Shown here: positions 16,165 through 18,333 of the stretch, in pieces
How positions within the stretch are numbered: position 1 is the first letter of the stretch
Layout: each line of letters opens with the position of its first letter
From: an uncultured Pelagibacteraceae bacterium
GTDB taxonomy: Bacteria > Pseudomonadota > Alphaproteobacteria > Pelagibacterales > Pelagibacteraceae
DNA: 38,603 nt
Assembly: GCA_902515205.1 (NCBI GenBank)
Contig: CABXTU010000009.1
Coordinates: 1-38,603 of the forward strand
Direction of reading: 5' to 3'
Notes under the pieces: model-generated
The model's input: only the letters and a program-made list of their open reading frames with translations
What the model was told of the DNA's origin: nothing
Database searches by the model: none
Made by a program: the position numbers and the translations under genes

Positions 16165-16658
16165 TGAATAAAGTTGCAATTTATCCTGGAACCTTTGACC
16201 CAATAACTTTTGGTCATATTGATGTAATTAAAAAGGGGCTTAAACTATTTAATAAGATTGTTGTTGCCGTCTCAGATGTAGAGAACAAAGATTATCTATT
16301 TAATTCTTCAGAAAGAATAGAAATTGTTAAAAATGCTTTGTTTTCAGATCTTAAATTGAATAAAAAAAAGATAATTGTTATTTCATTTTCATCTCTTACT
16401 ACTGATTTATGTAAGAAATATAAATCAAATGTTATTTTAAGAGGTTTAAGAGCTGTTTCTGATTTTGAATATGAATTTCAATTAGCTGGAATGAATAGAA
16501 AATTAAATAATAATATTGAAACATTATTTCTAATGTCTGATGTAGAAAATCAAATAATCTCTTCAAAGTTTGTTAAAGAAATTGTTAAACTAAAAGGTGA
16601 TATCAAAAAATTTACTACAAAAAGCACAATTAAATTATTAAAAAATAAATATGAATAA
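16164..16658 (+). CDS. coaD: pantetheine-phosphate adenylyltransferase
   Basis: Penultimate step of coenzyme A synthesis: joins ATP to 4'-phosphopantetheine. From the ATG at 16164 the 164-residue product shows the nucleotidyltransferase start A-I-Y-P-G-T-F-D-P-I-T-F-G-H (the T-x-G-H motif), R-G-L-R-A-V-S-D-F-E-Y-E-F-Q-L-A-G-M-N-R, and I-S-S-K-F-V-K-E-I near the C-terminus. A TTG three bases upstream is also in frame, but the ATG overlapping the gyrA stop by one base is preferred. It overlaps the cyclophilin gene by 8 bases. Confidence 0.94.
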   Translation: MNKVAIYPGTFDPITFGHIDVIKKGLKLFNKIVVAVSDVENKDYLFNSSERIEIVKNALFSDLKLNKKKIIVISFSSLTTDLCKKYKSNVILRGLRAVSDFEYEFQLAGMNRKLNNNIETLFLMSDVENQIISSKFVKEIVKLKGDIKKFTTKSTIKLLKNKYE

Positions 16659-17211
16659 ATTTATTTTTAGTTTATTAATTTTTTATTTTTTTATAACTAA
16701 CCCAACAATGTCAAAGGAGAATATAATGATTTTAAAGCTTAAAGATGGAGAAGTGAAGATTGAGTTGTTTGAAGATGCGGCACCAAATCATGTTAAAAGA
16801 ATAAAAGAATTAGCTAATTCAGGAAAGTATGACAATGTTGTTTTTCACAGAGTAATTGATGGTTTTATGGCCCAAACAGGTGATGTTAAATTTGGCAATT
16901 CTAATTCACCCGATTTTAATTTAGAAAGAGCAGGGATGGGTGGATCTGATTTACCTGACTTAAAACAAGAATTTAATAGTCTTCCACATAATAGAGGAAC
17001 TTTGTCTATGGCAAGATCATCTGATCCAGATAGTGCTAATAGTCAATTTTTTATCTGTTTTAAAGCAGCTCCTTTTTTAGATAGACAGTATACAGTATTT
17101 GGAAAAGTTATTGAAGGTATGGAAGTTGTTGATAAGATTAAAAAAGGAAATGAAAATAATAATGGAGCCGTTACAGACCCTGATAAAATCATCAGCTTTA
17201 AATCATTATAA
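16651..17211 (+). CDS. peptidyl-prolyl cis-trans isomerase, cyclophilin type, exported
   Basis: Catalyses proline isomerisation during protein folding. The 186-residue product starts with a hydrophobic stretch (residues 3-17, with T-N-P-T-M-S-K-E near its end) that looks like a signal peptide, so the enzyme is probably periplasmic, then a single cyclophilin domain. Conserved segments: E-L-F-E-D-A-A-P-N-H-V (38-48), V-V-F-H-R-V-I-D-G-F-M-A-Q-T-G-D, G-T-L-S-M-A-R-S-x-D-P-D-S-A-N-S-Q-F-F-I-C and F-L-D-R-Q-Y-T-V-F-G-K-V-I-E-G-M. An in-frame ATG just before I-L-K-L (codon 26) could give a cytosolic form. It lies between coaD and tgt; in many relatives queA sits between this gene and tgt but is missing here. 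Confidence 0.9.
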   Translation: MNKFIFSLLIFYFFITNPTMSKENIMILKLKDGEVKIELFEDAAPNHVKRIKELANSGKYDNVVFHRVIDGFMAQTGDVKFGNSNSPDFNLERAGMGGSDLPDLKQEFNSLPHNRGTLSMARSSDPDSANSQFFICFKAAPFLDRQYTVFGKVIEGMEVVDKIKKGNENNNGAVTDPDKIISFKSL

Positions 17212-17220
17212 TCTTTATTA

Positions 17221-18333
17221 ATGTCACTTAAAAACTTTGCTTTTAAAGTTTTAGACACTGACAATTATGCAAGACTTGGAATAATTGAAACTCATCGAGG
17301 TAATATTAATACCCCAGCCTTTATGCCTGTTGGCACTCAAGCTACTGTTAAAGCCTGTAAGATTGAAGATATCAAAAAAACTGGATCAGAAATAATCTTA
17401 GGAAACACTTATCATTTAATGATACGCCCAGGAGTTGAAAGGATTAAAAGAGTTGGAGGATTACATAAATTTATGAATTGTGAATTACCTATTTTAACTG
17501 ACTCGGGCGGATTTCAAGTTATGTCACTTTCTAAACTGAATAAAATTGACCGAGAAAAAGGAGCAATTTTTAATTCTCATATAGATGGAAAAAAATTTTA
17601 CCTCAGTCCTGAGGAGAGTATAAGAATACAATTAGGTTTGAATTCTGATATTTTGATGATTATGGATGAATGTCCAAAAAAATCAAATGATTATAATTTA
17701 ATTAAAAATTCTATGAATCTGTCGTTACATTGGGCTGAAAGATCAAAAAAAGCATTCGGAAATAATCCACATAAAGCAATATTCGGTATTATTCAAGGAG
17801 GTCTTTTTGATGATTTAAGAATTAAATCTTTAAAAGAATTAATTAAGATAAACTTCGATGGATATGCCTTAGGTGGTTTAGCGGTAGGTGAAAGTCAAAC
17901 TGAGATGTTTTCAGTTTTAGATGGGATCAAAGATCAACTCCCTAAAGATAAACCCCATTATCTTATGGGTGTAGGAACTCCATCTGACATTTTAGGTGCT
18001 GTAAAAAGAGGAATAGACATGTTTGATTGTGTCTTACCTACTCGTTCAGGAAGAACAGGTCTTGCATTTACTTGGGAGGGAAGAGTAAATATCAAAAACA
18101 ACAAATATCAAAATGACGACTCACCTCTTGACGAAAATTGTAAAAATTTTAATTTAAATAAATATTCTAAAAATTATCTAAATCATCTATTTAATACTAA
18201 TGAAATACTTGGCTCAACGCTTCTGACATTACATAATCTTAATTTTTATCAGGAATTAATGACTTTAATTAGAGAAAATATAAAGAACGGAACTTTTGAT
18301 CAATTTTATGATAAATTCAAAGATAAGTTGTAA
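17221..18333 (+). CDS. tgt: queuine tRNA-ribosyltransferase, zinc site incomplete
   Basis: Exchanges the wobble guanine of GUN-anticodon tRNAs for preQ1 in the queuosine pathway. The 370-residue protein keeps the active-site motifs: P-A-F-M-P-V-G-T-Q-A-T-V-K, L-T-D-S-G-G-F-Q-V (the base-binding aspartate), G-G-L-A-V-G-E and M-F-D-C-V-L-P-T-R-S-G-R with the nucleophile aspartate. The C-terminal zinc site is unusual. The family has C-x-C-x-x-C plus a later histidine; here the region reads P-L-D-E-N-C-K-N-F-N-L-N-K-Y-S, keeping only the first cysteine, while the histidine in T-L-H-N-L remains. Length and the rest of the fold are normal, so zinc may be bound differently or not at all. Confidence 0.93.
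   Translation: MSLKNFAFKVLDTDNYARLGIIETHRGNINTPAFMPVGTQATVKACKIEDIKKTGSEIILGNTYHLMIRPGVERIKRVGGLHKFMNCELPILTDSGGFQVMSLSKLNKIDREKGAIFNSHIDGKKFYLSPEESIRIQLGLNSDILMIMDECPKKSNDYNLIKNSMNLSLHWAERSKKAFGNNPHKAIFGIIQGGLFDDLRIKSLKELIKINFDGYALGGLAVGESQTEMFSVLDGIKDQLPKDKPHYLMGVGTPSDILGAVKRGIDMFDCVLPTRSGRTGLAFTWEGRVNIKNNKYQNDDSPLDENCKNFNLNKYSKNYLNHLFNTNEILGSTLLTLHNLNFYQELMTLIRENIKNGTFDQFYDKFKDKL

Follow-up and report, generated by a model that had tools for sequence, protein, structure and literature searches.

Loss of zinc-site residues in the tRNA-guanosine(34) transglycosylase of Pelagibacterales and its recurrence across Alphaproteobacteria

The tgt gene of an uncultured Pelagibacteraceae bacterium raises the question of whether a tRNA-guanosine(34) transglycosylase (Tgt) can work after losing much of its structural zinc site. 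This site, a CxCxxC motif plus a histidine, is a usual feature of Tgt that lies outside the equivalog cut-off for the family. Tgt is cited among the zinc-requiring queuosine enzymes (PMC9508795) and its zinc site is described as part of the tRNA-binding scaffold (PMC6165067). The gene studied here occupies 17221..18333 on the forward strand of the window, by which we mean the whole analysed stretch of 38,603 nucleotides (contig CABXTU010000009.1, assembly GCA_902515205.1), and encodes 370 amino acids. Its reading frame scores 468.3 bits against NCBIfam equivalog TIGR00430 (cut-off 306.75) and 484.9 bits against PF01702 (cut-off 26.3), an assignment shared by an AlphaFold model of the protein, and it is the single tgt match in its assembly. 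Among the 80 nearest named loci, whose proteins are at most 88% identical to it, all but one are titled Pelagibacteraceae, Pelagibacterales or Candidatus Pelagibacter ubique; the remaining one carries the title of a Flammeovirgaceae MAG.

A phmmer alignment to Zymomonas mobilis TGT (1ozm) runs gapless through the zinc region, setting C-K-N-F-N-L of the window protein under C-H-C-A-V-C. Together with an alignment of 225 Tgts, it delimits the former zinc site and the helix that follows as residues 302-340 (18124..18240, forward strand, as are all features below). The first cysteine column is kept as C307 (18139..18141), a position at which some relatives carry V, T, D, S, I, L or M, and the histidine column is kept as H338 (18232..18234), which is asparagine in 21 of 35 aligned proteins of g1, the SAR11 genus that contains the window. 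The second and third cysteines are lost, to N309 (18145..18147) and to L312 (18154..18156) respectively, the latter being leucine in all 52 aligned proteins of g1 and g5-g7. The site therefore reads C, N, L, H, and the loss of two cysteines with retention of the first cysteine and the histidine is as the preliminary description had read it from the single sequence. We class the protein as a zinc-less variant of Tgt because no intact zinc site was found in the window or in any of 180 SAR11 loci.

The catalytic, pocket and dimer-contact residues of the enzyme are kept. The preliminary description had both catalytic aspartates in place, and D94 (17500..17502; Zymomonas D102) and D269 (18025..18027; Zymomonas D280) are indeed invariant in 225/225 aligned Tgts, as are the pocket residues D149, Q192, G219, L220 and M249, the arginines R275 and R278, and the dimer contacts Y319 and H322. 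The dimer-contact residues F84 and Y315 are mostly kept across the same alignment, and F84, Y315, Y319 and H322 are all present in the window. Of the corresponding contacts of Zymomonas TGT, F92, Y330 and H333 are conserved and W326 is replaced by tyrosine; some of the Zymomonas ligand and residue numbers given here were counted along the alignment. One study describes these contact residues as a hot spot in the Zymomonas enzyme, which is functional only as a homodimer (PMC5395182). The substrate pocket, GGLAVGE at residues 218-224, is of the preQ1 type and not the queuine type, judged by the GGLAVG criterion given in PMC11570991.

We considered whether the missing cysteines might be hidden or replaced. 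A frameshift or sequencing error was rejected: a single forward frame out of three stays open at the zinc region, so that no frameshift conceals the cysteines, and the whole clade agrees with the window. The remaining four cysteines (residues 46, 87, 151 and 270) sit away from the zinc site, and C151 and C270 fall in the alignment columns of C158 and C281, which belong to the active site of Zymomonas TGT. Replacement metal ligands were likewise rejected, since no cysteine or histidine has been gained at more than 90% of g1 proteins between residues 285 and 370, and the sole gain there of any C, H, D or E is E345, a position that is already aspartate in 63/116 copies with an intact site. Separately, C87 (codon 17479-17481) occupies a column whose tryptophan (Zymomonas W95) is kept in 116/116 intact Tgts, in 31/31 other zinc-less Tgts and in 18/18 Tgts of the second SAR11 family, f2; cysteine replaces it in 35/35 g1 proteins and in 6/8 SAR11 proteins of g2-g4.

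Loss of the site extends to every SAR11 (Pelagibacterales) locus that we read. The C-x-C-x-x-C motif is present in 0/180 tgt loci, and not even two of its three cysteines occur together in any of them. A first set (110/110 without the motif) comprised 30 order-level genomes (L001-L030) and 80 named-contig loci (L031-L110), and a second (70/70) covered other genera, the second family and a more distant part of g1; of the 259 genomes of the order that have a tgt match, 100 were read in this way, and the 80 named loci overlap with them in species. What is left of the site differs between lineages. The window's part of g1 has C-x-N-x-x-L, while much of the other part has V-x-[KIRL]-x-x-L with the histidine changed to asparagine, so that all four ligands are gone in 21 aligned g1 proteins (V, then K/I/R/L, then L, then N). 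Groups g2-g4 have [VI]-x-C-x-x-S, g5 and g6 mostly C-x-[LI]-x-x-L, and family f2 has S-x-N-x-x-C. The first cysteine thus persists in part of g1 and in 13/17 proteins of g5-g7, the second in 8/8 of g2-g4 and the third in 18/18 of f2. As each cysteine survives in some SAR11 lineage, a single ancestral loss is disfavoured; if no cysteine was regained in the same place, the ancestor of the order would have had an intact site, with Pelagibacteraceae (f1) and f2 losing it separately. On these alignments, at least two losses of the site within Pelagibacterales are probable. In the tree, L197 and L322, two rows with long branches, are placed among the SAR11 rows, which for this reason need two changes, a figure that does not settle the number of losses.

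Judged by the sequences of other Alphaproteobacteria, zinc-site loss is not specific to SAR11. A tgt match occurs in 221/241 genomes of the class, and the sample from outside SAR11 comprised 147 copies from 144 genomes among the matches listed, a sample that leans towards query-like copies. Of these, 31 lack an intact site and 116 have one (111 at first pass, and five in which a gap had been misplaced). The commonest lost form, S-x-C-x-x-[SA], accounts for 20 of the 31; asparagine stands for the histidine in nine, and the third cysteine alone is lost in two (L236, L252). One genome (G507, 8% contaminated) holds both a zinc-less and an intact copy (L209, L322). When intact and lost states are placed on the best tree (199 rows, ligand columns removed), 13 changes are required, at least four of which are forced by well-supported branches; the tree was built by a quick method, with warnings for long branches and unusual composition. 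A further draw of 24 class loci, some from genomes already counted, gave 16 intact sites and eight that were not. In another class of the same phylum, where 133 genomes had a match, we read 40, and all 40 copies were intact. Named examples of loss include Sinorhizobium meliloti Ak57 (L474; S-x-C-x-x-T, with asparagine for the histidine) and both Shinella and Methylobacterium (S, C, A, N), and the site is kept in Paracoccus ferrooxidans, Sphingomonas parapaucimobilis and E. coli. Tgt copies on two contigs of a viral collection (L465, L471) are also without the zinc cysteines; the window protein, used as a query against that collection, found no relative.

This distribution bears on the suggestion, made in the preliminary description, that the site was shed as an adaptation to zinc-poor seawater. 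SAR11 is marine, and its ribosomal proteins L31 (16/16 read, of 18 loci) and L36 (16/16) are also without zinc cysteines (L358-L391). These proteins offer a parallel in that a structural zinc site has been lost and the protein remains in use; zinc-free forms are called 'C-minus'. However, L36 is zinc-free in every alphaproteobacterium read, including 22/22 readable examples from outside SAR11 (30 fetched), of which 13 have an intact Tgt site and nine a zinc-less copy, whereas loss of the Tgt site is patchy and recurrent. Zinc-free L36 is therefore a background of the class and does not track the loss in Tgt. Furthermore, the same Tgt loss is found in plant-nodule Sinorhizobium, in Shinella and in Methylobacterium, and the UvrA and zinc-ribbon-like proteins encoded in the window keep zinc-type CxxC pairs. 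We consider zinc sparing in seawater an unlikely cause; it is possible that the class as a whole relies little on structural zinc.

A second alternative is that SAR11 Tgt is decaying towards loss of function, as the preliminary description had also allowed. The later-pathway gene queA is gone from Pelagibacteraceae (0/33 genomes), and 38/297 genomes of the order have no tgt match. Two SAR11 tgt loci, in G262 and G282 (L161, L171), are split by frame breaks, which are either assembly errors or rare pseudogenes. At high completeness tgt is present in 141/150 order genomes and absent in nine; SAR11 may be able to do without tgt, but such a rate of absence is close to what 90-99% completeness gives, and real losses are possible. 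Against decay, the median dN/dS is 0.074 and the maximum 0.14 (2,094 pairs among 80 g1 sequences), and constraint on residues 291-345 matches that on the barrel (pN/pS 0.11 versus 0.13). Within this region, mean pN (40 of the 80 sequences) is 0.161 for the former zinc loop (303-315), 0.043 for the helix (316-345) and 0.086 for the barrel; the faster loop, which could be counted in favour of decay, is compatible with either free packing or relaxed constraint. The catalytic and dimer residues are invariant, and f2 and 30 other genomes carry a zinc-less Tgt yet keep queA. Given this strong purifying selection and the conserved active site and dimer contacts, we regard ongoing loss of function as highly improbable. 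It is scarcely credible that a metal is still bound through reduced or relocated ligands, for example across the dimer: one cysteine and the histidine remain in the window Tgt and C87 is a second unusual cysteine fixed in aligned g1 proteins, but none of the four ligands is left in 21 of those proteins, no cysteine or histidine has been gained nearby, and C87 replaces a tryptophan that zinc-less copies outside SAR11 keep.

The predicted fold is in keeping with a maintained protein. An AlphaFold model, given 24 SAR11 and eight viral-collection Tgts as input, has an overall pLDDT of 90, and 88-96 per ten-residue block through 301-350, a confidence that says nothing on metal dependence. An earlier model, built solely from SAR11 sequences, reached a pLDDT of 61 and was set aside as poor. 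The model superimposes on zinc-bearing Zymomonas TGT (1pud) over 366 residues at 1.5 A (Z 52.5), with a TIM barrel and a C-terminal subdomain.

The wider queuosine pathway indicates what the enzyme may be doing. No queA was found in 33/33 Pelagibacteraceae genomes searched, five of which also have no tgt. The gene is present in 9/9 f2 genomes, adjoining tgt in the 6/6 with tgt coordinates, and outside SAR11 it is found in 30/30 genomes with a zinc-less copy and in all 114 others. Its presence in both kinds of genome shows coexistence, not a link; since zinc loss coexists with a queA-bearing pathway in those 30 and in f2, loss of queA was rejected as the cause of zinc-site loss and represents a separate event in f1. 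Members of the QPTR transporter family (PF02592) occur in 38/42 SAR11 genomes (31/33 f1, 7/9 f2), with none found in the window's own assembly, which is 83% complete. A QueF search matched 39/42 SAR11 genomes, one of them above the cut-off, and these matches are probably FolE relatives. Directly upstream of tgt lies a gene for a cyclophilin-type PPIase (16651..17211; PF00160). Between 16161 and 17221, a coaD-like gene (cytidylyltransferase-like, coaD by sequence), the cyclophilin gene and tgt are packed in this order, with nine bases between the cyclophilin stop and the tgt start.

In S. meliloti, queA sits between two PPIase genes and tgt, a place from which it is missing in the window. This gene order and the absence of queA fit the proposal in PMC11570991 that Pelagibacter is tgt-only and salvages preQ1. 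The S. meliloti enzyme (L474) likewise has no zinc site and lies in a coaD-PPIase neighbourhood; unlike the window gene it adjoins queA, and its queuosine pathway is backed by genetics. According to PMC3568095, a tgt mutant of strain 1021 has queC/queF-like phenotypes in assays of HeLa cells and of symbiosis, and preQ1 does not rescue it in the former; these phenotypes come from strain 1021 and the zinc-less sequence from strain Ak57. The L474 record, CP090106.1, is a 3.7 Mb S. meliloti sequence labelled pSymB that carries coaD, queA and tgt, with queA missing from its gene table. This label may be wrong, because in strain 1021 both tgt and queA are assigned to the main chromosome (PMC3568095).

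The analysis shows which residues were lost and how widely in the phylogeny, that selection is purifying, which genomes have queA and transporter genes, and what fold is predicted; from this we infer that the window Tgt binds no metal, is catalytically active and yields preQ1-tRNA as its end product. We are fairly confident in this reading, in which a functional zinc-free Tgt was left as a preQ1-salvage enzyme after Pelagibacteraceae lost queA. The enzyme would work without structural zinc, its catalytic TIM barrel and preQ1 pocket unchanged, and the C-terminal subdomain that bears the aromatic dimer-contact helix would fold by ordinary side-chain packing, with leucine at the place of the third cysteine. 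The loss would be an old one, common to every Pelagibacterales locus read though probably not single, with further repeated losses in other Alphaproteobacteria that still had queA. With queA lost in the window's family, Tgt probably puts salvaged preQ1 into tRNA, and queuosine would not be completed. Among the open-licence papers searched for queuosine or preQ1 in SAR11, none offered direct evidence from tRNA. Of the earlier interpretation, a probably active enzyme with a zinc-free C-terminal subdomain stands and extends to the clade, with no intact motif among the SAR11 loci read to indicate a sequencing error or strain defect; functional loss and a seawater cause are not supported.

Among known systems, the window enzyme resembles Zymomonas mobilis TGT (1ozm, 1pud) in whole fold, catalytic aspartate pair and GGLAVG pocket. 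It differs in the zinc site, where two of the three cysteines are gone, as are all four ligands in many SAR11 relatives. Bartonella henselae bTGT (PMC11570991) is also encoded by a tgt without later queuosine genes and has an E. coli-like GGLAVG pocket; preQ1 salvage with a QPTR transporter is proposed for it, with Pelagibacter named alongside, and we found no mention of zinc in that paper. Among the open-licence papers searched we found none describing a zinc-less Tgt, and we do not claim that none is in print. A counterpoint comes from a 2022 paper, which describes zinc as required for TGT activity with reference to E. coli mutagenesis from 1995 (PMC9508795).

Taken further, the structural zinc of Tgt may be dispensable across the whole class, with the enzyme keeping its full queuosine-pathway function. 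We lean slightly towards this broader reading, in which the site would erode stepwise on a permissive background of strong barrel and dimer packing, the third cysteine often going early and the histidine changing to asparagine in parallel in several lineages. If it is true, the statement that Tgt requires zinc for activity fails for the family. Repeated natural loss of the site under strong selection provides ready-made zinc-free Tgts, which show which residues can replace structural zinc. It is also a caution for annotation pipelines, since a Tgt does not necessarily bind the metal. For SAR11, zinc loss adds to the tgt-only, preQ1-salvage state.
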